Assembly: GCA_921293015.1 (NCBI GenBank)
Contig: OV121098.1
Span: 12,127,016-12,191,015 of the forward strand
Length of the DNA: 64,000 nucleotides
Origin: Phorcus lineatus
Lineage: Eukaryota; Mollusca; Gastropoda; Trochida; Trochidae
Direction of reading: 5' to 3'
Shown: one piece after another, positions 4,944-37,322 of the stretch
How the letters are laid out: each line of letters starts with the position of its first letter
How positions within the stretch are numbered: the first letter of the stretch is position 1
Made by a program: the position numbers and the translations under genes
Notes under the pieces: generated by a model
Told to the model about the DNA's origin: nothing
What the model saw: only the letters and a program-made list of their open reading frames with translations
The model's database searches: none

Positions 4944-5658
4944 CTAGAGGAAGTCACTGTATCCGATATTGTTGAAGTAAGAAGTAGGTAATCGCTTCAC
5001 CTCCACCCTACAAGTGGACGAATATCTCTGGCAGTTTCCCGTTGCGTCATCAAATGTTTCCCCGAGAAAACATGTCTTCCGTTTCTCATGGTTTCCAAAA
5101 CAGATAAGGGCCTTATTACAGCCAGCACAACTCGGATACGAACCGGAAGGCAGTCCTGCGCATGACTTGAAACATCCGGTCTCAAAGATGAGATTTCGAC
5201 GGAAACGACCATTAGTTTGAGTTATGATTCTTAACTCCCTTCCTTGCACTTCCGGTGAATCATCTGCTGCAGGAGTTGTCTCCCCAGGACCGGTTACGCG
5301 ATTTTCAATTTCCGGTGTGACCTCTGTTGTTGTTGGATTCGCTGTTGAAGATGCTGTTGAAGATGCTGTTGTAGATGCTATTGTAGATGCTGTTGTAGTA
5401 GATGCTGTTGTTGATGTTGATGCTGTTGTTGTTGTTGTTGTTGAGGCTTGTGTTGTTGTTGATGATGATGATGTTGAAGTTGTTGATGTCGCTGATGAGG
5501 TTGAAGATGTTGTCCCTGTAGTCTGACTTGCCGTAGACTGACCAGCTGAAGTGGTTGTGCTGACAGAGGGGTCATCGCTGACCCGAGGTTCGATGTCCGG
5601 ACTACTCGTTGTGCTCGGGTTTTGATTCCGAGGCTGTACTTGAACGAGACTACTAACG
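4944..5658 (-). CDS. Gene A exon 3: Ser/Thr linker and C-terminal Cys domain
   Basis: The acceptor TATTGTTTACAG precedes 5658. The open frame continues upstream to a methionine at 5720, but that stretch is intronic: starting at the acceptor restores frame with exon 2 (GA + C, Asp). It encodes V-S-S-L-V-Q, then the Ser/Thr-rich stretch, then a Cys domain aligned with the end of gene B (G-C-x-K-S-C, Y-P-S-C, T-C-F). It ends in S-D-F-L and a stop. Confidence 0.85.
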
Positions 5659-7864
5659 CTGTAAACAATATAACCAGACTGTTGAGTCAACATATGCATT
5701 AACATTGAGAGCAATCTCAATGAAAGCAGTTCGAACCTTCATTTGATCTGTAACGTGCTTCTAAAAGCTCAAATGATTAGAGGCCCGCTTAACTATCTTA
5801 TCGTGATGATGGCTATGTTACCTCATCGCTGAATGGTAAGATCACCTTTCACGCCCCCTGGAGCTATACTCAAATCAGAAACGCAGTGAGATAAGAGTTA
5901 TAGGTTCGATCTGAGTTCAATGAGATTGAATTACAAAGGTGTTGGTAGACATTGAATAGACGTTGTTATCGAAATTCGCGGAAGCATTCTTAGGTTCTTA
6001 GATTTGACAATTTTAGCAGGTAATAAAGTTATTCATATACGAGTGAAGAAAGATTTCCTACGGTATGGCAATGCATTTGTTATAGTCTTATTGTTAATTA
6101 GTTGTTAATTTGTGGATATTCTATTAAGCACGATTTATCTTAATCGAAGTGTTAAAATAGCAAAATAATGCAAAATTGATGACGAGTCAGGAACAATCAA
6201 AACAGTTTTATAAAATGTGATAACTGCACATGTGCGCATATTGAAATTATGTCATCATAAAAAATGTTCACCCTAATGGTAATAAATTCACTTACTCGCA
6301 AAATCCGCCAGGTATACAAATTGAGAGGAAAATGTCATAGGTCAAGCTGTAAGGACACTGGGTGACCGTGTACTGGCCTCCTCTACAGCTCACGTACTCC
6401 CCACAGCTCGTGCAACTCGGGAATCGGCCATCTTGGTAGCCGCAGCCGTTAGTCTGGACACATCTCTGGTGGTCTGTGTATCAAACAATAATTCATTCAA
6501 GAAGATTTATTAACATATTACTTCTGAAAACTTAATTTTTTTCATAATTCACTTCTAAACCATACACAACCTAATTACCATGCTCCATCGGCGGTTCTGA
6601 AATCGGAGTTCATGAGTCGATGTTATCCATATGGAAACTGTGAGGATTAAAAAAATAAGTATGCTACCATTTCCCTCCTTATAATACGTTTGTTTTCTAT
6701 GAAAATTCTCAAAGAATGATTATATGGTTGAACGAAGCTGTCCTTTTTGCATTGCTTGATGTTGATTCAAGAAAATCATATTTTCTATTCCCGCCTGCTT
6801 TGAGAAGACGTCTTTTCGTCCCTACTATGTGCAAATCTCACTGAAATCTGTTCCAACCTGTCAACTGTACTTCGCCGCCTTTTTGATCTGAGAACTATGC
6901 CATTAGGTTGGTGTCAGATTGCCCTGTCTATGACCTTCACCTTCAATAAATTCTAAGTATCAATCACCCGCTTAAATATCAAACCGTTCCGACGTCGCTG
7001 ATTTCTTACGAAACAAATGCCACCTGATGAGATCCCTTATCTATTCCAATCCATGCGTCGTTTCGGTGCTGATAATAACACCGTTATGAAGAATGAACTC
7101 GCATATATTGCAATTAAGACGTTTATTATCCATCTCGTATTGTTCTCTTTTATAACGAAGACGGTAATCTGTGTACAAAATTTTATCACAGCCATGTTAA
7201 GAAAACTTGTATAATTGCATAATGCGACAGGGATTATAAAGTAACACTGGTGTGAAGAAAATATATCGAAAATGCGATAATAACAATTGAAATTTTTTTC
7301 ACTTCCCATTGTATCGCAGAGCGAATATCATGTAATTTTTGGTTCACTTTGGACGTCAATACAATAACTTCATCAAAACTAACGAATGAAATAGCCATAT
7401 ACGAATTAGCCATTCTTCAACTTAATTTTGGATTGGCCAAACTCTCTTGTAGAAGGGGTAATATTTTCAAAATTACAATTTCCCTTAGTTTTGATAGAAA
7501 TATTCTACATCGACTCTCTGAGAAAAAATCGGCACAATCATATTTACCCAGTGTAAGGGATTAAACATTATTCATGTAAAAGCTGTTGATCAAGCATAAA
7601 GGATTTTGTAGAGAAAAATAAAGATAACAGATCTGTTATTGGTATAGTATACCATATATCGATTTTCGCTATTCAACGATGCCTCAATGTCATCCATATT
7701 TGCATGATATTTGCGGATACGAACTTTCAGTATGGAGCTGTACATGTTTTTGAAAAATCTGAAAAAAATCACTCACGTTGTTCAAAGGAGAAGGTTCCGG
7801 GATTGTAAAATGCAAAGCACGGCACAAGACATGTTGCCAACAGAAACAGCGAAGAAGACTGCAT
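4944..7864 (-). CDS. Gene A: secreted two-CBM14 protein with Ser/Thr mucin linker
   Basis: I assembled three minus-strand exons, 7777-7864, 6296-6473 and 4944-5658, into about 326 residues. Residues 1-18 are a signal peptide (M-Q-S-S-S-L-F-L-L-A-T). Residues 34-88 hold eight cysteines in the pattern C-x5-C-x9-C-x2-C-x5-C-x9-C-x12-C-x5-C, like a modified chitin-binding type-2 (CBM14) domain. Residues about 121-203 are almost all Ser/Thr/Ala, as expected of an O-glycosylated mucin linker. Residues 251-305 carry a second eight-Cys CBM14-like domain (YPSC, TCFxG and DD motifs). The intron phases, 1 then 2, match gene B. Seen: exons, phases, cysteine spacing. Known for the family: CBM14 binds chitin and is common in peritrophic and shell-matrix proteins. 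Inferred: an extracellular chitin cross-linker. An upstream 5' UTR exon is likely because the ATG abuts an acceptor. Confidence 0.8.
5774..6290. other. Gene A intron and adjacent AT-rich sequence
   Basis: AT-rich intron of gene A between exons 3 and 2. I see no open frame, RNA gene or repeat in it that I can support. Confidence 0.6.
6296..6473 (-). CDS. Gene A exon 2: N-terminal CBM14-like domain
   Basis: The 178-nt exon lies between an acceptor (TACACAG) and a GTAAGT donor. It enters in phase 1 and leaves in phase 2. It reads H-Q-R-C-V-Q-T-N-G-C and on to G-G-F-C with no stop and eight cysteines. It does not appear as a long open frame because it is short, but the join on both sides keeps frame exactly. 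Confidence 0.82.
7030..7130. repeat. Diverged copy of the GAAACGTCGCAAT hairpin element
   Basis: The segments TTTCGGTGCTGATAATAACACC, TTGCAATTAAGACG and TATCCATCTCGT resemble, with changes, the arm of the foldback element at 50755-50915. It lies in the first intron of gene A. It is degraded and its ends are uncertain. Confidence 0.45.
7777..7864 (-). CDS. Gene A exon with start codon and signal peptide
   Basis: The ATG at 7864-7862 follows TTTCAG directly on the minus strand, so this exon is probably spliced to an unseen 5' UTR exon. It encodes 29 residues plus one base, with a hydrophobic core ending C-F-A before F-Y-N-P-G. The donor is GTGAGT after 7777, phase 1. Its upstream edge is the last unit of the 101-bp array. 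Confidence 0.8.
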
Positions 7865-9480
7865 CTGAAACGTGAAATTTACCATAAAAGTATTGATTCA
7901 CTTAGGTTTTCACAATTCTCTCTTATAAATACAACATAAACTAAAATGTGAAGACTGATTTGCATTTGAAAGGTGAAATTTACCAAAAAGTATTGATTCA
8001 CTTAGGTTTTCAAAATTCTCTATTATAAATACAACATAAACTAAAATGTGAAGAATGATTTGCATTTCGAAGGTGAAATTTACCAAAAAGTATTGATTCA
8101 CTTAGGTTTTCAAAATTCTCTTTTATAGATACAACATAAACTAAAATGATAAAGAATGATTTGCATCTGAAACGTGAAATTTACCATAAAATTATTGATT
8201 CACTTAGGTTTTCAAAATTCTCTATCATAAATAGATCATAAACTAAAGTGATCAAGAATAATTTACATCTGAAACGTTAAATTTACTAAAATGTATTGAT
8301 TCACTTAGGTTTTCAAAATTCTCTGTTATAAATACAACATAAACTAAAATGATAAAGAATAATTTGCATTTGAAACGTTAAATTTACCATAAAAGTATTG
8401 ATTCACTTAGGTTTTCAGACTTCTCTGTTATAAATACAACATAAACTAAAGTGATAAAGAATAATTTAAATCTGAAACGTGAAATTTACCATAAAGTATT
8501 GATTGACTTAGGTTTTCAAAATTCTCTTTTATAAATACAACATAAACTAAAATGTGAAGAATGATTTGCATTTGAAAGGTGAAATTTACCAAAAGTATTG
8601 ATTCACTCAGGTTTTCAAAATTCTCTCTTATAAATAGATCATAAACTAAAGTGATAAAGAATAATTTGCATCTGAAACGTTAAATTTACCATAAAAGTAT
8701 TGATTCACTTAGGTTTTCAAAATTCTCTCTTATAAATGCAACATAAACTAAAGTGATAAAGAATGATTTAAATCTGAAACGTGAAATTTACCATAAAAGT
8801 ATTGATTCACTTAGGTTTTCAAAATTCTCTGTTATAAATACAACATAAACTAAAATGATCAAGAATAATTTACATCTGAAACGTTAAATTTACCAAAATG
8901 TATTGATTCACTTAGGTTTTCAAAATTCTCTGTTATAAATACAACATAAACTAAAGTGATAAAGAATAATTTGCATTTGAAACGTTAAATTTACCATAAA
9001 AGTATTGATTCACTTAGGTTTTCAAAATTCTCTCTTATAAATGCAACATAAACTAAAGTGATAAAGAATAATTTAAATCTGAAACGTGAAATTTACCATA
9101 AAAGTATTGATTCACTTAGGTTTTCAAAATTCTCTGTTATAAATACAACATAAACTAAAATGATCAAGAATAATTTACATCTGAAACGTTAAATTTACCA
9201 AAATGTATTGATTCACTTAGGTTTTCAAAGTTCTCTCTTATAAATACAACATAAACTAAAGTGATAAAGAATAATTTGCATTTGAAAAGTGAAATTTACC
9301 ATAAAAGTTTTGATTCACTTAGGTTTTCAGACTTCTCTGTTATAAATACAACATAAATAAAAGTGAAAAAAAAATTGCATCTGAAACGTGAAATTTACCA
9401 TAAAAGTGTTGATGCACTTAGGTTTTAAAAATTCTTTGTTATAAATACAACAAAAACTAAAGTGATAAAGAATAATTTTC
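7861..9480. repeat. Tandem array of about 101-bp units
   Basis: About sixteen copies of a unit of about 101 bp. Marker segments are TATTGATTCACTTAGGTTTT, TATAAATACAACATAAAC and TGAAACGTGAAATTTACC. The marker TATTGATTCA occurs at 7891, 7991, 8091 and so on to about 9410. Copies differ by a few substitutions. The first unit merges with the start of gene A's signal-peptide exon. On the minus strand many units carry TTTCAG followed by ATGC, like the real acceptor and start codon. Confidence 0.9.
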
Positions 9481-10796
9481 TTAACATTAATTTGGATTTT
9501 TTGTTGTGCCAAAGTACATTATGTGGTCCAAAATGACAAATGTATGACAACTTCCTTTTTTCAATTAACATCCAATTTTTCCAGTTCATTCAAAATTCAA
9601 AGTAATCGGAAATGATTAAATGTTTGATATATGATACAATTATCAAAGCGATTATCATTATTAAGAAAACCTTACATAATAGGGAAGAGAAAGTTTAGAA
9701 TTTTTTAAAACCAGGCTACGTGTTTAAAAAAACGAATTATTTTAAATGAATCCAAAATTATTATTAATTTATTTAAGCTTAGTGATTATACAAAAGTTTA
9801 ACACAACTCAAAAGTACAAAAAAAAGATTTTACATATAAACAATATATTAAAAAATGATGTAAGCCCACTCACGATGCTATGCACTTCCACTCCGAATAA
9901 CAACGTACAACAACAATTCTATCTCCCCTTCAAGTGTATATATAGAGAAAACAGAAACCCCGTCTTGACATACACACCACCGATGTTCGATAGGATTATG
10001 TCGTGCCTAGTGACATGATAAATGTCATTTTGCACAATCCATGCTGGTAGCCATGCCATTTATTGCCACGGCTCTACTTACGAAATCACTTCGTAAATCC
10101 ATAGTGAAATGACACATACTGTGCCATAAACCCCAGAAATTTGCTTTCCTTTGTGAAAATGGGCGTTTTGTCCATTTCTAAATGTCATCGGAGAGTTGTC
10201 AACTGTCTCGACAGACACACCTGTGACTGACAACAATAACTCATGTTTGAAGAGAAAGATATTTCTTTAAAAATCTCTCTGGTTTTCATAGGCCTACGTT
10301 CAGATATACCATTTATGCAGAATCAAAACCCTTGCTAAATAGGACAATTACTGGTTTTCAATGCAAATCGGTCTTGTCGCAGTCTAGATAACTTGTCTCA
10401 TTACACATGTCATATGATCTATGCAGACCTAAATAGTCTGTTTTGCTGTTTGAAAAGTTTCCTAAGTAACGTTCAACAAATTGATCTGAGCCAGTGGCTA
10501 TGCACTGTCTGGTTTTCGATAAAAAACACGACTTTAGACCTTAATGGTTTCATTATACTGATGCCAACTTTAAGCAAAATGTGGCTCGTCCTGATACAAT
10601 GATCACCTTCAAAACTTTAATAACACACTCAATGTCATTGTAAATCTTATTTTGATGATTTTTCCTCCACCTTTACAAAGTGATATTGATTCGGGTTATA
10701 TTTTACGTCAAGCATCTTCTTGAAAAAAAATCTGTGCCAAACCAATACTGTTTATCTCAAATATGAAAAAAGAATGTCCAAACTCTATAGTTATAT

Positions 10797-11108
10797 ATAT
10801 AAAAGAGAAGATGAAGTCGAATTATCTTTGGCAAACGTTTATTATTATTATTTATTTATTATCATACACGGCCTGATGAGGTAGGTTCATTCTAGAATGT
10901 ACCCACTTTATAATACAGGGGCTGATGAGGTGGGTACATTCTAGAATGTACCCACTTTATAATGCACGGGCTGATGAGGTGGGTACATTCTAGAATGTAC
11001 CCACTTTATAATGCACGGGCTGATGAGGTGGGTACATTCTAGAATGAACCCACCTCATCAGAGGATAAAAGATATTCAAAGATAAATCAACTTCATCTTC
11101 TTTATATC
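10797..11108. repeat. MITE with inner 49-bp palindromic repeats
   Basis: The outer arms AGAAGATGAAGTCGAATTATC (left) and its near reverse complement ending CTTCATCTTCT (right, about 11077-11101) pair at about 22 of 25 positions. Between them lie four units of 49 bp starting near 10872, 10921, 10970 and 11019. Each contains the palindrome GTACATTCTAGAATGTAC. The last unit closes as a hairpin with CTGATGAGGTGGGT against ACCCACCTCATCAG. Confidence 0.8.
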
Positions 11109-13221
11109 GGAGCAAAATAGAATAACATGTGAATGACCAAATTTATCTTTGATGGTACAATCATTCCTATCTAGGGACTTTCAGAGAGCGGAGTAGGTGA
11201 CCCGACTAGACTGAGACAAGGTCATACAACGGACCTGGTCAGCGCGGCATGGTCCACTTCTGACATGGCAATTACCGTCCTCCACGGGAGACTGAGCGGG
11301 TCAAACATTGCGATCTAAAAGTAGCATATATCATGACAGATGAAGACTGACACAAATATATACTCTTGTTTAATGACATTCTTGTCAATTCACAACTTAT
11401 TCGTTGATACCCTGACAAACTGGTAACCAATAAATTACAAGGAGCCGGTTTTATTACAACATTGTTAAAATAGTGTTCACTCAAAGAGGTGCATACCGAA
11501 AGTTTGTTCACTTATCACTGAATCGTGGTGCAAATATCATGTAATTTGGGTTTAGTTTGGACCTCAATAAAATAGCTTCAGCATTTTACATGTGTGGAAT
11601 AGCCATTCTTGTACTTATTTTATCAGGAATTGTATGGTCTCTCTTATTTCTTGTGTAAGTTCACTCTCTTCAAAGAGTTTAATCAGTCCAATTCATTCAT
11701 GTTTTCCTACGTAACTTCAGTTTCAAGTAGGCCAATATGTATTTCTCATAAAGTTCCCTACTAAACGTAAATTATGTTTTATTTGAATTATATCATTAAT
11801 CGTTCTCCTCAGACTGGTTTCTATCTCGAGAGGTACATGTTCAAACCGCACAGGTGAAGGGGCTCAAGTCTTCAAAACAGTTGCAAAACCGGTACGATCT
11901 CCAGGCACGATCCCTGGGTAGACAATAAGTTACTTACACATTAATATGCTATCCAAAACAAATATTTTTGTTAAAGAAGCATTCGATTTAAAGTAGTTTG
12001 TTTGTTTGTTTAGAACATTTTTCATAAAAGTAAGTAATATGTATATATAACTTTGATAATGTGAAGAAAATTTTGCGTTTTTATTATGGTCAATGGCCAT
12101 GGTCAAGTGTAAGCATGCAGCCAAATTAGTGTGTAAACCTTTGCTTTGGTACGTCCGTATATGCTATACTTGCATTAGATAAAAACATTGTCGAAGGTAT
12201 CAGAGATTGAAGTTGCTTTTCGTCAGATTCCTATTCCTATAGGTAAAAAGGCATGTTCGTGCATTCGTTTCGATAGATTCTCCGATTTGACAAATAACTT
12301 CAATCGCAGCCAAAGAGAATTCTCAGAAAATCTTTAGATTTGTAACAGAGGTAACGTGCAAAGTGGGTTGAATAGCGTCAAGCTACTTTGTTTAATTCAG
12401 GTATACGTTATTCATGCTAACTCCTACTATGCACGGTATGCACGTGCCTCTCTGTTCATCGTGAACAACTTGTACGATGATATTTTGTTTTTAAATTAGT
12501 GTCAGTTGAAACTTTTCTTTTCAAATGAAAGCGAAGGGACTCGGTAAAATTGCAATTTTTCAAGACTGAATTTACTCATGTAGGAATCAAAACATAGGTT
12601 TGAACTTTTGACCCATTGGTTTCAACCGTCGAGCACTAACCATTATCGTTATGCAACGAAACTATATGGCCGTAAAACACGACATCGAAAATATTTTCAT
12701 TCAAGAGATATCGACAGAGGTTTTAAGCAAATCATTTGATTTTTTTCTCATGCTTTTCGTATTACATAATCGTTCATCCTTAATCGAGGATAAAATTCTG
12801 TCAGTAAAATCTAAGTAGCACAGCTTTTCTCACTTTGAAATAAATTCTTATGATATGAGAAAAACAAATTAACAGATTTTAATCAGCCTTTTATTCAATA
12901 ACCATAAATCAATGAGATTAGTTGGAACAAACGGAACCTCTCACGATCTCGAAGGATGATCTCACCACATGCGGCATAAGCCTTTAATCTTCGATAATCC
13001 TCTGGCGTTCAGATTCCAACACGGATAGTAATCCGCATAGTTTTAGACAAACTATCGCTCCGTTGGGGTCTAAACAACGGGGATGTCTTTATTGTCAAAT
13101 ACAGAGAGACTATTAAGTACGTTAAGTTTTATATTGAGGGCCTTGGGAATTCGTTGAAGAAATCATGTAATTCAGAGAATGAAAATGATGCTTTTTCCTC
13201 ATGAGGTTCTGGCAAAATTTC

Positions 13222-13470
13222 AGTGCAAAATCACCCTTCAAACAAACGAAAGAGTTCTGTGCCAGCCGGATATTACGTTCTCTTGGTAGGGGCACCCAAA
13301 ATGGACAGGTCGAAGGGTAGAAGCCATACTTATTTAAGTAGTTCTAAAACGTGTTGTAAATCTCTTAATATGCCTTTCTTTCCCCTCATGATTTCATCCC
13401 TTTCTCCACTTTTCCCGGATGCTTGTCATCCACGAGTTTGATAACTGAAATATTGTTGAAAACACGTTAA
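13222..13470 (+). repeat. SINE-B copy, diverged and incomplete
   Basis: Segments matching SINE-B in the plus orientation are GCCAGCCGGA, GGTAGGGGCACCCA, GACAGGTCGAAGGGTAGAAG and, at the end, GATGCTTGTCATCCACGAG, AATATTGTTGAAAACACGTTAA. The tRNA-like head end and the GTGAG tail are missing. Confidence 0.7.
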
Positions 13471-16400
13471 AAGACAAATCCTTGAAAGGTTATGAGACTT
13501 TAACATGAGGAAGTGTATCAAATCAATTCAACGTAACGAGTGTAATTGTCTGTATCAACTGAGCGAGAGCGAGGGTCAACTCAGATGTTATGGATATTCG
13601 TTACTACATGTATATAAAAGGCACACTTCGGATTGCAATAAGTTGTTTCTTTTTCCAATTCTGTTCTTTTTCGAGAATTTTGAAACATCAAGAAAACATC
13701 ACGTACAATTGTTTTCTAAATACTAAACTAGCGCTGAAACAATCGTTCTTAGTCGAAGGTGATATATGCACATGTGCACATATGAAAACTATTTTTTATT
13801 CAATAAATGATTTATAAAACCTCCACTTAACAGTACATACCTACCTCTGCTAAAGTCAAACATACAGCTAGTAAACAAGAACCTATTACAATGCTCATAA
13901 TTTCCTATATAAAGTCAACATTTTTTAAAATGTTAGTTTGTCACCAACGTATAACACTACAATGTACAAGCCATACTCTTGAATAATATGTGAGGGGTTC
14001 AAATGTACACTAGATATACAAGTTACATATGCGTGGTTTGCCGGAGACAATTCTGGCATTGCCAAAGAGGAATGGAGTTTAAAATAAAGATTTTCATATT
14101 TCAGCAATCAGATATGAACTTAGCATGTTTTCGTAATTGTTTCGACAACATATTTTCATAAAGTTCATTACTTACAAAAATGTTTTGAAAGGAGAGTTTT
14201 AAGAGAAATTTTAGAAAGATTTAGTTTTTCTTTTGATTTCAGTGTGTCACAAATCCATGCCAAAGGTATTTCAGCGGAAATATGAATAAGCTAATAAGGT
14301 ATGTGATCGGAACATGATGTTTCGTCATCTCCACAAACATCATAAAGCTTAGCGGGAAGATGATTGCATGAGACTATCTTTCAAACACCCATTTAAATGA
14401 TATTTGCAAGTAATGTAACAAACTTTTACAAGTAACAAGCTGTAAATCTGTTAGTAAATCGGAAAAGCAAAAATTGAAGCACCCGTAAAATGTCCAAAGA
14501 AAGTTTTGGTGATGACCTTGGCTGCAACGTGAGTACACTTAGTTGTGGGTATATGAAGGTACGGTATAGTTTTAAAAAAACTATTACGATACAGTCTTAG
14601 TTTAATCTAACTTATATCGATAGATCTAAGTCAATCCAGCTAATATGGGTACCAATAATTGAATGAGCTTATTCTGAAAATGTTTATTCATGAATTAAAA
14701 GTGTTATATATCTCTGTGTTAAAAATAGATAAATAATTTAAAAAATATTATTATGGGTACCTTATATTACGGTCAGAATAATCATATAAAACGTTGTTAA
14801 TATCTGTCTCCAGTTGTCATGCTGCTGAAAATAAACATATTTTGTCTGATTGGTTTTGTAACGCGAAACTTAATGATTTAATAATTCTAAACTGGACACT
14901 GTACAGCGAATTTATTGATCATGGGTCAAAAGTAATTTAAGAAACAGAAAAGTATAAAAGTATAGTCTGGTAAGTTATGTTACTACTGTACAAGCAACAT
15001 CTACTGGGCAATTAATTTAATGTCAACTTAAAGTAAATGTCAGTTTGGCAAATGGGTTTAAACGCTTACACAGCTGCATACCGAAAGTTTGTTCATTTAC
15101 CACTGAATCGTAGTGCAAATATCATGTAATTTGGGTTTCGCTTGAACGTCAATAAAATAACTTCAGCATAACTGACAATGAATAACCTACTGTCCAAGTG
15201 TGAAGTAACCGTTTTTTAACTCTTTTTGGGATCGTGTGATCTCTGGTGCAAAAAGTCGAATTTTGGCATATTGATAAAGACAGAGGGAGTAACATTTTTG
15301 AAATTTCGATTTCGTTAAATGTCAAATAAAATTTTCCATATTGACTCTCCCAGATTAAAACCAACATAATCACATTGACTTTGTGCTAAGGTATAAACGT
15401 GACGTATTTTGTAAGAAGATGATAACTTATAAAGGATTTTATGGAGAAAAATAAAAATTAATGTTTTCGGAATTTTGACCCCTGGTCACTTCAGTGATCT
15501 GCCAAAACTGTTACGGGTAATTGTGGGGTACGATAAACATTTGCCTTAAAGAAGAATGGATCTGCATATGTGTATTGAAAACTCAATATTATACTTTTAT
15601 TTTTCACAACGCTACGATACCTCAAAGGCATCTCAAATTACATGATATTTGCACTAGTATATACAGGTATGTGAACAAACTTTTGGCATGCAGCTGTAGA
15701 CTAGGGCAGTTAAGGAAAGTATTCAATAATAAAGATCTGATTGCGGGTCATAGCGTGGTATATCGTGTGTGCTAATTCTAGATAATTATTTGGGAGAGTC
15801 TATTTAAGTGACGGGGTCAATGACAATTCGTTATCAAAACCACCAAAACCAAAAAACTATGTTTGTAGGCAAAGTGCCCTCTGGGCAGTCACGGACGCCA
15901 CCCTTAAACTCATAAACCACAGCTCAGTTGATAGAGTGTCGGCCTATTACCCGGCAGACTTAGTTTCGATTCCTCCTCGCCTCGTACCAAGATACGTTTA
16001 AAAAGAGAAAGTAGGACGTTTTTTAAATAAAAAAAAACAACATAGAGGTAGTTTTAAGTTCAAAGTATCATGATCAGTAAAGCTCTGCTAATCTATTTCT
16101 TTACTTTATTAAAGATTTTCACACAAATTGCCGGCAGTTATTTTTGTTTTTGCTTGGTTTTATCCTCTAAGACTTGATCGAGTTGAATAATGGAATGGTG
16201 TTTTTTGTCCCCTTAAGGTAATACATTTTGCATAAACTAATGTTTTATCGTGACATTTTTTTTAAAACATTAATCTATTGCCTGTCTAAGAAAAAACATA
16301 TGTCCTTGCTCAAGACCAAACATTAACAAATATAAACTAGGACCGCCAAGACTTCCTCTTTGACCTTCACACAGAGTTTGACCTTCACATGCTTTTTTGT

Positions 16401-18802: not shown

Positions 18803-18887
18803 ATGAACAGAACTTTGGTGTCCGCTTCATTATTTGGAGTCGTTATTTGGATATGGATTGTTGTTGGTTTTACTGATGAACTTAACG
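18803..18887 (+). other. Possible alternative first exon of gene B
   Basis: An ATG after a TATATAAATA-rich stretch opens 28 codons (M-N-R-T-L-V-S-A-S-L-F-G-V-V-I-W). They are hydrophobic like a signal peptide and end at a GTGAGT donor in phase 1, the phase needed for the CBM14 exon at 21643. It cannot be joined to the exon at 19892 without a quick stop, so the two would be mutually exclusive. Evidence is only hydrophobicity and phase. Confidence 0.3.
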
Positions 18888-19891
18888 GTGAGTCATGTTT
18901 ACAATTTATGCGAAAATATTTCTTTAATAGTTAAAAGTTGTTTTAAGATAAAAAATAAAATTATGATATATAAAGTAAACATATTATCCATTCTACATGT
19001 GCTATATACAATTAACTAAAGGGACAGTAGCATATTGTAAAAATTAATGAAAGTGATCTATTCAAAAAGAAAATAAATTTCTCCAATTGCAAGACAATTT
19101 ATTTAATCAGCAGTTTTAGAAAACGAACGTAACATGCTCGGTTAAGCTACATGTATGTCAATGCATTTTCCAATCCAACGAAAATGAACGCAAGTGGTTT
19201 TTGCCTCATACTTGAATATATCCTGAAGGATGATGGGGTAGTGCAAAGAGATGTTTTAAGCCTGTGAAGATAATAATTTGGTAAAAACTAAATTTTTATT
19301 TTGGAAAATTTGAATTAATCCTTTCAATTCATTCAATATATGTAAACATAAAACATATTTATTTTGGTTATTCAAGCATGAAAGTATAATGCGATTTTTT
19401 ATATATTCCTTTACCTTACGAAACTATAGCAATTGACTCTTATTGTTATTGAAAGACCTGCTTTCCCATTGACGACATAAAATATTGATACTCGATCGAT
19501 GAAATAACAATCCATGATAAATTGATTTTCTAAATTTTAACCAATCCTAAATAAAGGGGAGAAAACAAAACATTGAAGTAATCACATCAGCATTTTTAAA
19601 GCGGCATTATGAGTAACTTTGACAAACGGTCAAATAAAAGACGGAAGTATTTGTTGTTACCCAAATAACGCCAATGACTTTCACCAAACATATTCTCGCT
19701 CAAAGAGACATATGCTTCCATTCTATTCATTGCATTGTCAAACAAATTCTTAAAAAACCTTTAACACCCTTATGGTTTATGTGGGTTTTGGAAGATTGAC
19801 AAATGACAACATTCTTATCGGTGTTGCATTACTTTTGTCCAGGTGTATATCAAACCCATATGCATATGTCAAAATATTTTCTTGATTTCAG

Positions 19892-19961
19892 ATGCATACC
19901 TACCCGTTGTTGTTGGCGATATTGACCATAGTAATCTGTAGTGGACAGGAATACCATAAAA
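19892..19961 (+). CDS. Gene B exon with start codon and signal peptide
   Basis: CTTGATTTCAG is followed at once by ATG, exactly as in gene A. It encodes M-H-T-Y-P-L-L-L-A-I-L-T-I-V-I-C-S-G-Q-E and ends with one extra base before GTGAGT (phase 1). The predicted cleavage site is near S-G before Q-E. Confidence 0.8.
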
Positions 19962-22900
19962 GTGAGTTGTAACGATAATTATTATCATTTTTCAATCACA
20001 ATAATAAATAATAACTCTTTATTATTTTAGCACAATGAACAGCGGAAACTTATCTTGTGCATTTTTACATAAAGACGAAGTGCAGTGTCAGTTTAGAAAA
20101 TATTCTGTCCTCATAACGGACGTCACGCAAGCTAGGATACAATAATTGCCATCTTCTAAAGAAACAGTAGCATTTTTTTGAAAAGGTTACTATTCAAAAT
20201 CCCCCAATGAGACGTAAGTGTAGCAAGATTGATTCTTTAGAAGTAAAACATCTCATTACCACAATCTGTTACCCGTAGTCTTAAAACAAGATGTCAAGTT
20301 TCCAGTGAAAACTACAGGCGACCATTTTAGTGTGAATTCTTTTTAATCATTTCAGTTAGGGAAATGGATTCGCGTAGCGTCACAAATTTTGTACTTCATG
20401 TTAAAATTTTAAGTATTCATTAAAACAGATTGTATTTCAATTAGTTACATGTAACTAAAACTCGTGACGGTGACTTGATGGCCTGTCCTCATTTCGCCTA
20501 CACTGTTATCAAAACACAGTTATGGGTGGATGCACATAACAGATACACCCTGATCTCTTAAGAATAATGAACTCTTCCATCAAGATATTAAAGATAACAA
20601 GGAAAGAATAGCTGCGGGGTGTGATGTTTTATTTTACATCCAATGATGGTTGGATTTTGTTTACTAAATATGATACATATATACATGAATCAAAATACAA
20701 GCTGGGCATTGTAGCACTAGACTATTGTATTTTGTTTAGTTCATATCACTGAACTACTAAGTGATACATTACATATAAAATTTTATACAATCGACTTGAT
20801 ATCTTTTGGTATTACGCTGCCGGGATTCGAACCTCGGTTTTCGAATGATAAGCGGCCTCTCTACCATATTAGTACATAAAAAGTATTGCAGAATGGAGCC
20901 CCTATGATGCATTGAACTTTACAAACATGGCATTGTATGTCTTTAAGGACTTCGTATTGACATTTTTATAAAATCAAAATATGACCAATTTTATATATTT
21001 CAATACCTGGGCGTGTTTTATTGTCTAGCATAATTGTTAGAAAATGAAGAAATTTTTGTCAACTGGATAGTTATTATTTTATGTAGAAAGTTAAACATCA
21101 TTTGAAATATCAAAATATAAATAGGTTGTATAAATGCTGTCAATCTGCTAGACATATGGTATGAGGGGCAAAAGAAACTATAACATATTATTTCCGTTTC
21201 TATAAATAAGAAATGACCTTTTTTACTTGAAAGTTTAACGTGTTTTATTGTCTAGCATGATTTATAGAAAATTAAGAAATTTTAGTCCACTGGATAGTTA
21301 TTATTACTCTGTAGACAGTTGAACATAATTTGATAATATCAAAATATAAATAGGTTGTATAAATGCCTTTAGAACATATATTTACATGTTCCATTTGCTA
21401 GACATATGGTATGAGGGGCAAAAGAAACTATAACATGAAAAAGAAATGGATAAGGCCATATTTTGGAAAGAGCGTGTTTTCTTAAAACGTAAATGGTGAG
21501 TTGTGTACTCGTGACATTGTTTGATTTCAATTAAAAAAAGTAATTTCTTATTTATGGAAAAGTTCCTTATCCATTTTTTTCATGACCAATAGTATATACG
21601 TTCATCACTTACTACTGCACTATTCTTTATCTCTTTTTGCAGGCTACCCGTGTGTGAGAAGGAACTGTTTCGGCTTTTCTGACGGGAAGCACCGTGAGTG
21701 TAACAGGTGCGATGGCTTCGTGAACTGCTACTTCTGGACATACTACAGCTTCACCAAATGTCCTCCAGGGGAAACCTTCAACATCGTCACCAGCTCCTGC
21801 GACGACACAGACAACTGCGGCGAGTGTAGTAGACATGGCTACTGCAGGTAGGTAATTTATATTGTATTGGACAATACCAGGTGTTATGCACAATATTCTA
21901 GTCCTGCTAATATATAGGAGTCTTTACCACAGTGTAGGTTTTAATTCAGCAAGTCTAGATTTGACTAATTGCACTCATGGAAAGAAAAGCACAAGGAACC
22001 ATTATCATTCATGAAGGAACATTAATTATGAAAATATTTCCTGGACTAAAGTTTTTTTCTAATACCACCCATGGCATTCTATTCTAACAGAAGTAGCTCC
22101 GTCATAAATTCCTATACAACCTCTGTCTTAATACGAAAGTTTCTTGGTCTTCCGGCAGTTTCCCCTAGCAATTGCAACTTAAACTACCTGGCTATATTTC
22201 AGCCAATGAAAAGAACGAATGCATAAATAACATATTTGTTGACACAAAGGCCCGTGGAACGAAACAGTCTCAAAATGAGGCGTTTTTGTTCTATTAAGAC
22301 GACTCAAAGTGCGAGGTGCATATTCGAATAAAGTTTGGCTTTTGGAAAGGTTACGGAAATAACTTAGGCGATTTGAATCATAGCTTGTGAAACGACGTCG
22401 CTGATTGCACTACTAACTTTGATTGCATCCAATCAACGTTCTACATTGCGTGACCAAGAAACCCTCGAATTAAGACAGAGGTTGTATAGGAATTTATGAC
22501 GGAGCTACCTTTTTTGAGAGAGTGCATCCATTGTTACCTAGGATGCTTACCTTACGCCTGCACGAAATGCTTTGCCTTAATAGTCTTTCGACCCAATTTA
22601 CAAGTTTAACAGATACCAAGTTCGTACAATAGCTTTTGAAGTATTAAACTTTTTTCTAACTTTTTTCAAAAGTTTAGTGTACTTTCTTGAAATATCAACC
22701 CCAAAAAATGGGGGTTAGTGTGGGTTTTTTCGAGATATTTTAAGATCCCTTTGTCGGTCAGAGACTTAGCATGGGAGTCAATTGGGAAATGATGACCTTT
22801 TTTGAGAAATCTTAAATTTAAATTAGTTCCTGTATTAAACTTTTTTTAATATGAAAACATGTTTGAGTTAACATAGATTTCTTCCAGAAAAAAGTATAAA

Positions 22901-25900
22901 ATATACATGGTACTGTAGCTTTTTAGCCGCTACGGCACAACATGTATTCAGACATTTCAATTAAATTATCAACATTCAAGCTATATTGTACTAAAAACAT
23001 GCTTTCTCGCACTCATTATCTAAAAAAATACCTGAACGCATACATACAAATCATATTCATTCAAGAACATCAACTTTCTAAGAAAAACAGATTATAGAAC
23101 TTGCTCAAATGAAAGTAACAGTTAAAAATTGCTGAGTCAGCAAAATTGTGAATTATTTCAAAAATTTTATACTACGTTTCTTAATTTTGATGAATATTTA
23201 ATCAGAAATCATTAAAAGTGAGAAATTTCCGCTTCATTTTGGTTTATTTTGTAAGAACATTATAATTAAAGGTTATTTGAGTTTTGTCTCTGTGACTGAG
23301 GAGCGAACATCCTTAACTCATTTCTTTGATCAGAGGTATATTTAACATTAATTTTGATGGCAACTTTTATTTTAAATAAGGCCGGTGACAACAACTACTA
23401 GTACATCGACAACGACCACAACACCTACCAGTACATCAACAACCACAACAATACCTACCACTACATCAACAACGACGACTACGCCTACAAGTACATCAAC
23501 AACGACAACTACCACTACATCAACAAGAACACCTACAAGCACATCAACAACGACCACGACGCCTACAAGAACATCAACGACGACCACAACGCCTACAAGT
23601 ACATCAACAACAACAACACCTACAAGCACATCAACAACGACCACGACGCCTACAAGAACATCAACGACGACCACAACGCCTACAAGTACATCAACAACAA
23701 CAACACCTACAAGCACATCAACAACGACCACGACGCCTACAAGAACATCAACGACGACCACAACGCCTACAAGTACATCAACAACAACAACACCTACAAG
23801 TACATCAACGACGACCACAACGCCTACAAGTACATCAACAACATCTAAAAGTACATCAACCACGACCACAACGCCTACCAGTACATCAACAACGACAACA
23901 ACACCTACCAGTACATCAACGACAACCACAACACCTACCAGTACATCAACAACAACATCTACAAGTACATCAACTACGACCACAACACCTACAAGTACAT
24001 CAACAACGACCACAACGCCTACAAGTACATCAACGACGACTACAACAACACCTTCAAGCACATCAACAACGACAACGACGCCTACAAGTACATCAACAAC
24101 GACAACAACGCCTACCAGTACGTCAACCACGACCACAACGCCTACAAGTACATCAACAACGACAACAAGTACATCAACAACGACAACAACACCTACAAGT
24201 ACATCAACAACGACCACAACGCCTACAAGTACATCGACAACGACCACAACGCCTACAAGTACATCAACAACGACAACGACACCTACCAGTACATCGACAA
24301 CGACCACAACGCCTACAAGTACATCAACAACGACAACAACACCTACCAGTACATCAACGACAACCACAACACCTACAAGTACATCAACAACGACAACAAC
24401 ACCTACCAGTACATCAACGACGACCACAACGCCTACAAGTACATCGACAACGACCACAACGCCTACAAGTACATCAACAACGACAACAACACCTACCAGT
24501 ACATCAACGACGACCACAACGCCTACCAGTACATCAACAACAACATCTTCAAGTACATCAACTACGACCACAACACCTACCAGTACATCAACAACAACAC
24601 CTACCACTTCATCAACAACAACACCTACCAGTACATCAACAACAACACCTACCACTTCATCAACAACAACACCTACAAGTACATCGACAACGACAACAAC
24701 ACCTACCAGTACATCAACGACGACCACAACACCAACCAGTACATCAACAACAACAACACCTACCACTACATCAACAACAACACCTACAAGTACATCGACA
24801 ACGACAACAACACCTACCAGTACATCAACGACGACCACAACGCCAACAAGTACATCGACAACAACAACTACGCCTACAAGTACATCAACGACGACCACAA
24901 TGCCTACAAGTACATCAACAACGACAACGACACCTACCAGTACATCAACGACGACCACAACGCCTACAAGTATATCAACAATGACAACGACACCTACCAG
25001 TACATCGACAACGACAACACCTACCAGTACATCAACAACAACAACACCTACCACTACATCAACGACGACCACGGCACCTTCCAGTACATCAACTACGACC
25101 ACAACGCCTACCAGTACATCAACAACAACACCTACCACTACATCAACAACAACACCTACAAGTACATCGACAACGACAACAATACCTACCAGTACATCAA
25201 CGACGACCACAACGCCTACAAGTACATCAACAATGACAACGACACCTACCAGTACATCGACAACGACAACACCTACCAGTACATCAACAACAACACCTAC
25301 CACTACATCAACAACAACACCTACAAGTACATCAACAACAACAACACCTACCACTACATCAACGACAACCACGGCACCTTCCAGTACATCAACTACGACC
25401 ACAACGCCTACCAGTACATCAACAACAACACCTACTAGTACATCAACGACGACACCTACAAGTACATCGACAACGACAACAACACCTACCAGTACATCAA
25501 CGACGACCACAACATCAACCAGTACATCAACAACAACAACACCTACCACTACATCAACAACAACACCTACAAGTATATCAACAACAACAACACCTACCAC
25601 TACATCAACGACAACCACGGCACCTTCCAGTACATCAACTACGACCACAACGCCTACCAGTACATCAACAACAACACCTACCAGTACATCAACGACGACC
25701 ACAATGCCTACAAGTACATCAACAACGACAACGACACCTACCAGTACATCAACGACGACCACAACACCAACCAGTACATCAACAACAACAACACCTACCA
25801 CTACATCAACAACAACACGTACAAGTACATCGACAACGACAACAACACCTACTAGGACATCAACGACGACCACAACGCCTACAAGTACATCGACAACAAC

Positions 25901-28900
25901 AACTACGCCTACAAGTACATCAACAACGACGACACCTACCAGTACATCAACCACGACCACAACGCCTACAAGTACATCAACAACGACAACGACACCTACC
26001 AGTACATCAACCACGACCACAACGCCTACAAGTACATCAAAAACGACAACGACACCTACCAGTACATCAACCACGACCACAACGCCTACAAGTACATCAA
26101 CAACGACAACAACACCTACCAGTACATCAACCACGACCACAACGCCTACAAGTACATCGACAACGACAACACCTACCAGTACATCAACGACGACCACAAC
26201 GCCTACAAGTACATCAACAATAACAACGACAACGACACCTACCAGTACATCAACGACGACCACAACGCCTACAAGTACATCAACAATGACAACGACAACG
26301 ACACCTACCAGTACATCAACGACGACCACAACGCCTACCAGTACATCAACAACATCTTCAAGTACATCAACTACGACCACAACGCCTACCAGTACATCAA
26401 CGACGACCACAACGCCTACAAGTACATCAACAACGACACCTACCAGTACATCAACAACAACAAGACCTACCACTACATCAACAACAACACCTACCACTAC
26501 ATCAACAACAACACCTACAAGTACACTGACAACGACCACAACACCTACAAGTACATCAACGACTACAACAACACCAACAAGCACATCAACAACGACAACA
26601 ACGCCTACAAGTACATCAACAACGACAACAACGCCTACCAGTACATCAACCACGACCACAACGCCTACAAGTACATCAACAACGACAACAAGTACATCAA
26701 CAACGACCACAACGCCTACAAGTACATCGACAACGACCTTAACACCTACAAGTACACCAACCACGACAACAACACCTACAAGTACATCAACGACGACCAC
26801 AACGCCTACAAGTACATCAACAACGACACCTACCAGTACATCAACAACAACAAGACCTACCACTACATCAACAACAACACCTACCACTACATCAACAACA
26901 ACACCTACAAGTACACCGACAACGACCACAACACCTACAAGTACATCAACGACTACAACAACACCAACAAGCACATCAACAACGACAACAACGCCTACAA
27001 GTACATCAACAACGACAACAACGCCTACCAGTACATCAACCACGACCACAACGCCTACAAGTACATCAACAACGACAACAAGTACATCAACAACGACAAC
27101 AACACCTACAAGTACATCAACAACGACCACAACGCCTACAAGTACATCGACAACGACCTCAACACCTACAAGTACACCAACTACGACAACAACACCTACA
27201 AGTACATCAACGACAACCACAACACCTACAAGTACATCAACAACGACAACGACACCTACCAGTACATCAACGACGACCACAACGCCTACCAGTACATCGA
27301 CAACGACCACAACGCCTACAAGTACATCAACAACGACAACAACACCTACCAGTACATCAACGACGACCACAACGCCTACCAGTACATCAACAACAACATC
27401 TTCAAGTACATTAACAACGACCACAACGCCTACCAGTACATCAACAACAACAACTACGCCTACAAGTACATCAACAACGACGACACCTACCAGTACATCA
27501 ATGACGGCCACAATGCCTACAAGTACATCAACAACGACAACGACACCTACCAGTACATCAACGACGACCACAACGCCTACAAGTACATCAACAATGACAA
27601 CGACACCTACCAGTACATCGACAACGACAACACCTACCAGTACATCAACAACAACACCTACCACTACATCAACAACAACACCTACAAGTACATCGACAAC
27701 GACAACAACACCTACCAGTACATCAACGACGACCACAACACCAACCAGTACATCAACAACAACAACACCTACCACTACATCAACAACAAGACCTACAAGT
27801 ACATCAACAACAACAACACCTACCACTACATCAACGACAACCACGGCACCTTCCAGTACATCAACTACGACCACAACGCCTACCAGTACATCAACAACAA
27901 CACCTACCAGTACATCAACGACGACCACAATGCCTACAAGTACATCAACAACGACAACGACACCTACCAGTACATCAACGACGACCACAACACCAACCAG
28001 TACATCAACAACAACACCTACAAGTACATCGACAACGACAACAACACCTACCAGGACATCAACGACGACCACAACGCCTACAAGTACATCGACAACAACA
28101 ACTACGCCTACAAGTACATCAACAACGACGACACCTACCAGTACATCAACGACGACCACAATGCCTACAAGTACATCAACAACGACAACGACACCTACCA
28201 GTACATCAACGACGACCACAACACCAACCAGTACATCAACAACAACAGCACCTACCACTACATCAACAACAAGACCTACAAGTACATCAACAACAACAAC
28301 ACCTACCACTACATCAACGACAACCACGGCACCTTCCAGTACATCAACTACGACCACAACGCCTACCAGTACATCAACAACAACACCTACCAGTACATCA
28401 ATGACGACCACAATGCCTACAAGTACATCAACAACGACAACGACACCTACCAGTACATCAACGACGACCACAACACCAACCAGTACATCAACAACAACAC
28501 CTACAAGTACATCGACAACGACAACAACACCTACCAGGACATCAACGACGACCACAACGCCTACAAGTACATCGACAACAACAACTACGCCTACAAGTAC
28601 ATCAACAACGACGACACCTACCAGTACATCAACGACGACCACAATGCCTACAAGTACATCAACAACGACAACGACACCTACCAGTACATCAACGACGACC
28701 ACAACACCAACCAGTACATCAACAACAACAGCACCTACCACTACATCAACAACAAGACCTACAAGTACATCAACAACAACAACACCTACCACTACATCAA
28801 CGACAACCACGGCACCTTCCAGTACATCAACTACGACCACAACGCCTACCAGTACATCAACAACAACACCTACCAGTACATCAATGACGACCACAATGCC

Positions 28901-29678
28901 TACAAGTACATCAACAACGACAACGACACCTACCAGTACATCAACGACGACCACAACACCAACCAGTACATCAACAACAACAACACCTACCACTACATCA
29001 ACAACGACCACAACGCCTACAAGTACATCGACAACAACAACTACGCCTACAAGTATATCAACAACGACGACACCTACCAGTACATCAACGACGACCACAA
29101 TGCCTACAAGTACATCAACAACGACAACGACACCTACCAGTACATCAACGACGACCACAACGCCTACAAGTACATCAACAATGACAACGACACCTACCAG
29201 TACATCAACGACGACCACAACGCCTACAAGTACATCGACAACGACAACACCTACCAGTACATCAACAACAACAACACCAACCACTACATCAACGACGACC
29301 ACGGCACCTTCCAGTACATCAATAACGACCACAACACCTACAAGTACATCAACAACAACCATAGAGAGCTCATCTAAGCCACACCAGAAGACAAAGAAAG
29401 TGGTTTATATTAAAGGAAAGGGATTCACACGAAAGTTAACATTTGAAAGCGGGTGTGTAAAGAGCTGCCATGGCCTACCCGACGGATATTACCCATCATG
29501 CTTTAGTTGTCAAGAAATTGTTGTGTGTCAACCGGAAGTAAAACGTTTCTACACTTGTTTCAGAGGATACAGCTGGGATGATTACTATGGTGATTGTAAA
29601 CTCAAATCTACGACTTGTGCGGAAGACATCAAATATGACCCTGGTAGGAATCTCTTTGACAGCTTTGCCCTAGTATAA
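19892..29678 (+). CDS. Gene B: giant two-CBM14 protein with about 1990-residue Thr-rich linker
   Basis: Exons 19892-19961, 21643-21847 and 23381-29678 join in frame to about 2190 residues. Residues 1-18 are a signal peptide. Residues 27-91 hold a ten-Cys CBM14-like domain (C-V-R-R-N-C, C-P-P-G-E-T-F). Residues 94-2085 are uninterrupted repeats of about ten residues built from T, S and P (P-T-S-T-S-T-T-T-T-T). Residues 2117-2171 carry an eight-Cys domain aligned with the end of gene A. Phases 1 and 2 are as in gene A. Seen: a 6.3 kb exon with no stop and matching domains. Known for families of this layout: chitin-binding mucins of gut linings, cuticle and shell. Inferred: a very long glycosylated spacer between two chitin-binding ends. 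The assembled length of the array may be approximate. A 5' UTR exon upstream of 19892 is expected. Confidence 0.82.
20810..20880 (-). repeat. tRNA-like relic
   Basis: On the minus strand GGTAGAGAGGC and GAGGTTCGAATCCCGG resemble internal A and B promoter boxes. The stems do not close into a tRNA, so this is more likely the head of an old SINE or a tRNA pseudogene. Confidence 0.35.
21005..21440. repeat. Direct duplication of about 230 bp
   Basis: The stretch from GTGTTTTATTGTCTAGCAT through ACTGGATAGTTATTATT, AAATAGGTTGTATAAATGC and GACATATGGTATGAGGGGCA to AAACTATAACAT occurs twice, starting near 21011 and 21238. There are small differences and a short insertion. It is intronic in gene B. Confidence 0.85.
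21643..21847 (+). CDS. Gene B exon: N-terminal CBM14-like domain
   Basis: The acceptor CTTTTTGCAG and donor GTAGGT bound 205 nt that enter in phase 1 and leave in phase 2. The reading is Y-P-C-V-R-R-N-C-F-G-F-S-D-G and on to C-S-R-H-G-Y-C. It has ten cysteines, two more than the matching exon of gene A, and a C-P-P-G-E-T-F motif typical of CBM14. Confidence 0.85.
22092..22511. repeat. MITE with about 33-bp terminal inverted repeats, copy 1
   Basis: GTAGCTCCGTCATAAATTCC at the left end is mirrored by GGAATTTATGACGGAGCTAC at the right end. The interior matches the copy at 31826-32225 in inverse orientation (GATTGCATCCAATCAACGTTC). There is no coding capacity. Confidence 0.85.
22520..23370. other. 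Rest of gene B intron 2
   Basis: AT-rich intronic sequence between the MITE and the mucin exon. I see no supported gene, RNA or named repeat in it. Confidence 0.55.
23381..29678 (+). CDS. Gene B large exon: Thr-rich array and C-terminal Cys domain
   Basis: The acceptor is TTTTATTTTAAATAAG before 23381, weaker than the others, but the join (AG + G, Arg) keeps frame with the previous exon. About 6.0 kb of threonine/serine/proline codons follow without a stop. Then come E-S-S-S-K-P-H-Q-K-T and the Cys domain, with G-C-V-K-S-C, Y-Y-P-S-C and T-C-F-R-G motifs, ending F-A-L-V at 29678. Confidence 0.85.
23385..29360 (+). repeat. Coding minisatellite with 30-bp base unit and nested longer periods
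   Basis: The base unit is about 30 bp (ACAACGCCTACAAGTACATC and so on), with 24- and 27-bp variants. Longer periods are visible: 87 bp three times near 23561, 23648 and 23735; 390 bp between 26462 and 26852; 483 bp between 27788, 28271 and 28754. All are multiples of three, so frame is kept. The array is so biased that the reverse strand is also open for almost 2000 codons. Confidence 0.95.
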
Positions 29679-36480: not shown

Positions 36481-36820
36481 CAGCAAAATAAAAAAAGCAA
36501 CAACTTCACGATGTTGCTTCGTCAGTCATGAACCTAGTTTGACTGTCCGTGACCGGCACAGAGGAGTCAACCAATTTCTCATTGTGCTTTTGCAAAGAGG
36601 GTATTACATTTTTAAAATATTGAAAAAATAATAGAAGCAATCTGCACTTTGATGACTAATTAATTGTATGAAATATAATACTTTTCAGTACGGCTCTAGT
36701 AACAATCAATCACATAACCTGCTTTTTTATATCAATACGTCATGTTTGGCATTCAATACTTTTATTTTCGTCAATTTATGATATTTTATTTTCTTAATTA
36801 CGTTTAAGAATTAGGAAACG
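36310..36820 (+). pseudogene. DUF6589-like remnant after SINE, with 10-bp duplication, then AT-rich intron
   Basis: N-V-K-K-D-V-G-D-C-F-S-S-F-A-D-F is in frame after the SINE. The 10-bp unit ACTTCGTGAC is duplicated in tandem near 36379-36398, shifting frame before the following conserved segment. Beyond about 36480 I see no coding match until the PHD exon. Confidence 0.6.
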
Positions 36821-36828
36821 AGACTGCA

Positions 36829-37073
36829 ATGTTGGCATGTTCCAACCCAACTTGCTCGAACGGCAGCAATTTTCATTTGGAGTGCCTTGGCATGGGCGAG
36901 AATAAGGTACCAGATGGAGACGGGTACTGTTCAGAGGAGTGTCAGGATACCCCCTATCAGTATTGTGTCTGCCATACTGACCTGGGTAATAAGGTATCCA
37001 TGGTTGCTTGCGAAAACCTCTCCTGTACTAGAGGAGAATGGTTCCACCTGCAGTGTGTAGGCATAAAGAAACA
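36829..37073 (+). pseudogene. PHD-finger exon of the DUF6589-like gene
   Basis: The open frame carries two zinc-finger parts. The first is the end of a PHD-like finger (C-S-N-P-T-C, H-L-E-C, Y-C-S-E-E-C). The second is a nearly full one: Y-C-V-C, then C-E-N-L-S-C, W-F-H-L-Q-C-V-G-I. PHD fingers bind histone H3 tails. A GTATAT donor follows G-I-K-K-Q-R-F-L. The last Cys pair is in the next exon. The exon itself is intact, but the gene around it is broken. Confidence 0.65.
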
Positions 37074-37322
37074 AAGATTCCTGGTATATATACACATATA
37101 TTTCATTTGAGTGCTTGTAACATCTACGACCGATTATTTGATGAACTCAAATGTTTTTTAAACAGAAAAAAACGCGTGATTGTAAGAACTGATAAGGATT
37201 CAATTGTGATCGACATTGAAACAGTTTTAATGATGATATTTTGTACATCTTAAGGTATTTCATACATTGTGCGCCATACGCTTTATACTCTTTAAATAAG
37301 TTATATTGGAATTATACTGTAG

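Follow-up and report, generated by a model that had tools for sequence, protein, structure and literature searches.

The DNA analysed here, hereafter the window, is a stretch of 64,000 nucleotides from the trochid gastropod Phorcus lineatus (contig OV121098.1, positions 12,127,016 to 12,191,015), which holds two divergent genes, A and B, separated by a 12-kb gap (7864 to 19892) and each coding for a putative secreted mucin with a CBM14-type cysteine domain, or head, at either end of a Ser/Thr-rich linker. Gene A lies on the minus strand (7864-4944) and gene B on the plus strand (19892-29678); each has three coding exons, for 326 and 2190 amino acids (aa), and the stop codons fall at 4944 and 29678. 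An earlier note on this DNA had placed the pair at 4944..29678, coordinates that correspond to these two stop codons, and had described for both genes a signal peptide, an N-terminal Cys domain, a Ser/Thr linker and a C-terminal eight-Cys domain with shared exon phases; this layout, with a signal-peptide-like start and eight-Cys heads at both ends, is indeed common to A and B, and the introns are in phases 1 and 2 in both. The exon plan, the four CBM14-type heads, the Ser/Thr linkers and the existence of at least six further two-headed paralogues all rest on sequence evidence. The exons would be joined as splice signals, phases and paralogues indicate, and secretion is suggested by composition, hydrophobic starts being seen in both proteins.

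In gene A, exon 1 (7777..7864, minus strand) contains the start codon and the hydrophobic, signal-peptide-like start MQSSSLFLLATCLVPCFA, and ends at a phase-1 donor (C/GTGAGT, the slash marking the exon end). Exon 2 (6296..6473, minus), preceded by a phase-1 and followed by a phase-2 intron, codes for the N-terminal eight-Cys CBM14 head, and exon 3 (5658-4944, minus), entered in phase 2, contains the whole linker, with a Ser/Thr-dense block of 80 residues (5322..5561, minus), and the second eight-Cys CBM14 head, with a short tail and the stop codon (4944..5210, minus). In both genes, an acceptor-like TTTCAG directly precedes the start codon, which makes it probable that the 5′ untranslated region contains one more intron, ending exactly at the ATG. 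Note that a 102-bp satellite of 16 copies (7860-9478) reaches exon 1 of gene A and overlaps its start codon. The acceptor-plus-start sequence TTTCAGATG is present in at least six of the satellite units and has seven exact copies, gene A's own included, on the minus strand between 7701 and 9700; elsewhere in the whole window there is one more on the minus strand and one, gene B's own, on the plus strand. It looks as if the intron/ATG border of gene A had been copied into the satellite.

In gene B, all on the plus strand, exon 1 (19892..19961) holds the start codon and the hydrophobic, signal-peptide-like start MHTYPLLLAILTIVICSG and ends at a phase-1 donor (A/GTGAGT); exon 2 (21643..21847), phase 1 in and phase 2 out, codes for the N-terminal head, with eight CBM14-type Cys and two further Cys; and exon 3 (23381-29678), entered in phase 2, carries the linker and the second head. 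Here the linker is an array with a period of 30 bp (23381..29380), coding for PTSTSTTTTT units over about 2000 residues (66% Thr, 20% Ser and 10% Pro, that is 1335, 407 and 203 among 2012 residues), and is followed by the C-terminal eight-Cys CBM14 head and the stop codon (29415..29678). The linker of gene A is unlike it in sequence and less regular. The linker lengths of about 80 and 1990 residues given in the earlier note hold for the dense block of A (80) and the array of B (about 2000), but the residues ahead of the first Cys of the C-terminal head number 161 in A (48% Ser/Thr) and 2024 in B. These 2024 of 2190 residues, with 86% Ser/Thr and 10% Pro, exceed the one-third of the protein used to define a 'Muc' protein (PMC2515642), and the Ser/Thr block of A, with 80 of 326 residues, falls below it.

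Such a long array calls for evidence that it is coding at all. It could be that gene B is not working or that its exons are not spliced together, the array being a satellite that is open by chance or owing its length to the assembly. Indeed, the openness of the array proves little because its 30-bp unit allows few possible stops: the forward frames contain 0, 15 and 6 stops and the reverse frames 191, 1 and 230, so that two other frames, with 6 and 1, are nearly open too, and the open frame was rejected as a proof of coding. In addition, long tandem repeats are prone to mis-assembly, and a 580-bp stretch of the array recurs exactly, 483 bp further on. Against this, among the 123 of 202 P-to-P units of gene B that are exactly 10 residues long, departures from the consensus unit fall 19 times on the first, 32 times on the second and 314 times (of 365) on the third codon position, and the array is therefore under coding constraint, as judged from codon positions. 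Moreover, it stands in frame with a conserved CBM14 head, the exon phases of gene B are those of seven paralogues including A, and the units vary, with 44 different nucleotide sequences among the 123, all of which makes a non-functional gene B highly improbable. The exact 580-bp recurrence also means that the array was turned over recently, and the length of the linker probably varies between individuals.

By sequence, all four heads of A and B are CBM14 (peritrophin-A) domains, and one head per gene is so by predicted fold as well. This agrees with the earlier proposal of a CBM14-type head at each end, since in a hidden Markov model check all four match the CBM_14 profile and one, the N-terminal head of A, passes the Pfam cut-off of 22.1 bits with 24.3 bits. 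We aligned 21 hand-picked heads from 14 loci (the four of the window, six further N-terminal and 11 further C-terminal heads), of which 21 of 21 match CBM_14 at E <= 1; seven of the Cys columns show no variation at all and one shows hardly any. The Cys spacing of the four window heads is C-x5-C, then x9-10, x12 and x5-6, and thus contains the six-Cys spacing of the EHEP type (C-x5-C, C-x9-C, C-x12-C). The two extra Cys set these heads apart, on sequence grounds, as an eight-Cys CBM14 subtype; among the 48 classifiable of 51 distinct matches, 30 have both extra Cys, 2 the middle one only and 16 neither, some of these last being incomplete upstream. AlphaFold models of the C-terminal head of A and of the N-terminal head of B reached a mean predicted local distance difference test score (pLDDT) of 68.3 (core 82-85) and 79.8, respectively, and the first 14 Foldseek matches of each were CBM14 folds, with weak E-values for so small a domain. 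Decay-accelerating factor, which gave six matches when the C-terminal head of B alone was searched against PDB with phmmer, was taken as a chance hit (EHEP had E 0.064 in that search), and a search of a phage collection with the C-terminal head of A gave no match.

The best PDB match, both to the head profiles and to the two AlphaFold models, was EHEP of the sea hare Aplysia kurodai. Heads of this kind might have left sugar binding altogether and hold polyphenols, haem or metals, as in EHEP, with a linker that keeps the protein soluble or retained. EHEP, which precipitates phlorotannins, is no chitin binder (PMC10619976), and the mosquito mucin AeIMUC1 is reported to bind haem besides chitin (PMC5865745). 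However, EHEP consists of three adjacent domains without a mucin linker, and its rank may partly reflect sampling, since the mollusc CBM14 structures among the PDB matches were few (EHEP and a squid beak protein). A ligand other than sugar is quite improbable in our view.

Genes A and B are not alone. In the genome searched (958 Mb in 74 contigs, with the window on contig C41; other loci are given by contig and megabase position), at least 150 CBM14 matches stood above the cut-off (150 of 488 candidates were scored), and the C-terminal head of A matched 41 places (E <= 0.1), that of B 33 (E <= 0.01) and the N-terminal head of A 24 (E <= 1); loci were extracted for 30 of the 41. Pairing of C-terminal with N-terminal matches gave at least eight two-headed genes, namely A, B, C41:14.2, C41:16.0, C41:23.49, C41:23.50, C25:9.04 and C25:37.3 Mb. 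A phase-1 acceptor of the N-terminal head and a phase-2 acceptor of the linker exon are found in all eight, and a phase-2 donor in seven (none was called for C25:37.3 Mb), with candidate splice sites in other phases too at several loci. An acceptor-like CAG abutting an ATG with a hydrophobic start occurs also at C41:14.2, C41:16.0 and C25:9.04 Mb, that is in five of the eight; the scan, which covered all but C25:37.3 Mb, showed no such border at C41:23.49 and C41:23.50 Mb. The residues before the first Cys of the C-terminal head, with their Ser/Thr content, rise from 54 (39%) at C41:16.0 Mb through 67 (10%) at C25:37.3 Mb, 79 (14%) at C25:9.04 Mb, 161 (48%) in gene A, 172 (76%) at C41:23.49 Mb, 279 (83%) at C41:23.50 Mb and about 380 (64%) at C41:14.2 Mb to 2024 (86%) in gene B. 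The earlier note had thought the long member unusual in size for this layout; it is the largest of the eight, but ordinary among invertebrate mucins, given that mucin-like proteins of Drosophila are reported to span 300-23,000 aa (PMC2515642).

Around this core, other arrangements were observed. The genes at C25:9.04 Mb (L025) and C25:37.3 Mb (L021) have long His/Asp/Gly repeats (GHPVDHGTG, GQVVDHGAG) after the C-terminal head and no mucin linker; these repeats may be compared with the His-rich matrix proteins of squid beak. C-terminal heads with poly-Thr linkers of 109 and 69 residues lie at C25:9.05 and C25:23.8 Mb, where the linker exons offer phase-1 acceptors and could therefore be joined directly to a phase-1 first exon, and four more C-terminal heads (C41:13.1, 11.76, 11.77 and 11.78 Mb) have no Ser/Thr linker in their exon. 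Further eight-Cys CBM14 exons, several as rows of two or three domains, were seen at L030-L045 and L048, among them some identical duplicates (e.g., L042/L043) and some matches with internal stops. Within 50 kb on each side of the window, a six-frame search with the head profile gave no match at E <= 0.5, and the only Ser/Thr-rich frames above threshold were three simple-repeat frames in one flank piece (L011).

The relationship between A and B appears looser than their position suggests. The earlier note held that they differ chiefly in the linker; this fails, since their joined heads are only 40% identical, and those of A share 47% with C41:14.2 Mb and 48% with C25:37.3 Mb, those of B 44% with C25:37.3 Mb. 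In a tree of the joined heads (about 120 columns, eight genes and one model, with long branches), A and B stand apart, B grouping with the long-branched C41:23.49/23.50 pair (support 92.8/63) and then with the C25 genes, and forcing A and B together, the one constraint applied, costs 13.1 log units (approximately unbiased (AU) test, p = 0.032). In the single-head tree (21 rows), A groups with C41:14.2 Mb (84/69 and 88/76) and the C-terminal head of B with the C25 genes (87/75), with moderate support, no starred branch and long-branch warnings, and a tree of C-terminal heads only (14 rows) does not settle the place of A and B. These tree positions are hints only. Since the AU test speaks against a sister pair, A and B are probably not sisters, and they are two neighbours of one family rather than a special pair. 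Of the idea that one ancestral gene gave two lengths, the common ancestry of the layout stands, and the pair with two lengths gives way to at least eight paralogues and the AU result. A truer case lies at C41:23.49/23.50 Mb (L046, L047), a tandem two-headed pair whose heads are 85% identical and whose poly-Thr linkers measure 172 and 279 residues, which by sequence is a recent duplication with a change of length.

We propose, with a probability of roughly 0.58, that A and B are secreted two-headed CBM14 mucins of a molluscan family that tie chitin or N-acetylglucosamine (GlcNAc)-bearing chains. The linkers would be densely O-glycosylated, judging from their composition, and hence stretched; each head would hold chitin or a GlcNAc-bearing chain, and one molecule could tie two chains, its linker fixing how far apart they lie, as is thought for insect peritrophins with mucin domains. 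A glycosylated mucin extends by about 0.25 nm per residue, and at this value the Ser/Thr block of A would span about 20 nm and that of B about 500 nm. Thus, A might bind its chains tightly and B loosely, the latter as a gel-like tie that holds water, and linker length might shift by gain and loss of repeat units and hence differ freely between paralogues. Linings or secretions that contain chitin, such as the foregut cuticle, the radula, the mantle or periostracum and the egg capsule, would be likely sites.

Several observations weigh against this proposal. Three of the four window heads, with 19.1, 14.7 and 15.0 bits, lie below the Pfam CBM_14 cut-off, and in the two-headed genes at C25:37.3 and C25:9.04 Mb, two out of eight, the linker is low in Ser/Thr (10% and 14%), so that a glycosylated rod between heads is not a family-wide rule. 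No N-terminal head was found at E <= 0.5 in the 3.5-4 kb upstream of C25:9.05, C25:23.8, C41:13.1 and C41:11.77 Mb, nor for C41:11.76 and 11.78 Mb, where only 1.5 kb inside the locus was examined. Finally, EHEP and the mite protein Der p 23 are reported to share the fold without binding chitin, and the residues on which binding depends differ among known chitin binders (PMC10619976); sequence cannot decide chitin binding for these two reasons, and chitin binding and cross-linking by the heads of A and B are proposed here by analogy.

The same heads could instead cross-link mucus without chitin, by binding the glycans of other mucins or each other's linkers in a pedal or epithelial mucus or an adhesive. 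The adhesive mucus of a limpet is described as containing, among its secreted proteins, the chitin-binding type II protein P-vulgata_7 (392 aa), and mucus cohesion is said there to require binding to proteins and carbohydrates (PMC7333891). Likewise, the SC mucin of Plautia stali has one CBM14 and is described from an organ in which no chitinous membrane was seen (PMC9095716), and mollusc mucus mucins of the A-B-A type have Cys-rich ends and a Ser/Thr-rich centre (PMC10475054). Nevertheless, the window contains no pointer to mucus over a chitin lining. Moreover, CBM14 is best known as a chitin-binding family. We rank the chitin-matrix role ahead of the mucus role, which is possible although less likely; both are live options.

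If the heads do bind chitin, the family would be a natural experiment, with one pair of clamps on linkers of which the longest is nearly 40 times the shortest. It would then be possible to test how spacer length determines the mechanics of a chitin matrix and its water content. An extended version, which we regard as rather unlikely, is that the family forms a graded set of spacers, in which a two-headed CBM14 cassette, held constant by its exon plan, is combined with linkers of about 50-2000 residues adjusted as repeats are gained or lost. Different members would in this way set the spacing of chitin fibres from tens of nanometres to about half a micrometre, the length of B being polymorphic and possibly a selected mechanical trait. 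Without chitin binding, the family would be of less interest, as one more rapidly changing group of invertebrate mucins.

Elsewhere in the window, a dispersed repeat was noted at 42735-43119 and near 31.4, 32.5, 49.1 and 51.8 kb, with translations that share 'SNPARGSATLSAVENCSTRSQVWVQCYTE'-like strings. One copy contains a tRNA match of 32 bits, just above the Rfam cut-off (43018-43089, minus strand), and ARAGORN found no tRNA in the window; the repeat is perhaps a tRNA-derived short interspersed nuclear element. Frames resembling immunoglobulin (Ig)-domain exons by eye lie at 46.1-48.6 kb (minus) and 61.7-63.0 kb (plus) as similar copies in opposite orientation (NSAGLSDSAQVNINVQC), with tandem repeats at 47202-47524 and 62744-63011, and perhaps represent a duplicated cell-surface Ig gene. 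Frames at 36808-37585 (plus) look like PHD-finger repeats by eye (CSNPTCSNGSNFHLECLG...). Outside the window, 16 molluscan haemocyanin beta-sandwich domains, which mark the genome as that of a mollusc, form two groups of eight on contig C12. Part of one domain matches haemocyanins, best of all chain 3j32_A ('Hemocyanin isoform 1'), and a pair of haemocyanin genes with eight domains each is consistent with a gastropod.

Many elements of this layout are already known, namely CBM14 domains around a mucin spacer in insects, a Cys-PTS-Cys (PTS, Pro/Thr/Ser) protein with a chitin-binding domain (CBD), A-B-A mucins in molluscs and very long mucins in flies. Insect peritrophins, which carry several CBDs with mucin-like domains between them, are described as 'cross-linkers for chitin fibrils' (PMC5865745). 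Like A and B, insect peritrophins and intestinal mucins (AeIMUC1, Drosophila Muc and Mur) combine CBM14 domains with a Ser/Thr(-Pro)-rich spacer, behind a signal peptide that in A and B is putative; peritrophin-A is reported in 9 of 23 characterised mucin-like proteins of Drosophila (PMC2515642). However, AeIMUC1 is described as having 275 aa and three CBDs, whereas A and B have one head per end, and they differ from insect peritrophins in their eight-Cys instead of six-Cys heads, their molluscan origin and, for B, a spacer of about 2000 residues. Likewise, JiangShi of Drosophila (CG14880) is described as a secreted Cys-PTS-Cys protein with an N-terminal CBD, but its C-terminal Cys motif has about 20 residues and is not called a CBD, and Pro/Thr/Ser make up 175 of the 510 intervening residues (34%) (PMC9339309).

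Among molluscs, EHEP (PDB 8in3) resembles the heads of A and B as a gastropod protein with peritrophin-A domains, and differs by its three domains with the spacing CX15CX5CX9CX12CX5-9C and three disulfides and by binding polyphenols, not chitin (PMC10619976). In the scaly-foot snail, CBM14 genes annotated as chitin-binding peritrophin-A are reported to be expressed in scale and mantle epithelium (PMC7142155); in the available parts of the sources, neither these proteins nor P-vulgata_7 of Patella are described as having a Ser/Thr rod capped by a CBM14 head at each end. The A-B-A mucins of molluscs (PMC10475054) resemble A and B by layout as described, and no matching protein was found in the available parts of the reports on Crepidula shell matrix proteins, with two mucin-like genes (PMC11401363), and on the chitinous foregut cuticle of slugs (PMC6685607). 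The literature searched, which left out most subscription papers, yielded no family of mollusc proteins in which a CBM14 head stands at either end and linker lengths differ so widely; this is no proof of absence. Altogether, A and B add a molluscan eight-Cys branch to a peritrophin/mucin theme best described from insects, together with a long coding repeat whose length probably varies within a species. They would thus form a new molluscan branch of a known layout, whose notable part is the extreme, and probably variable, length of B.
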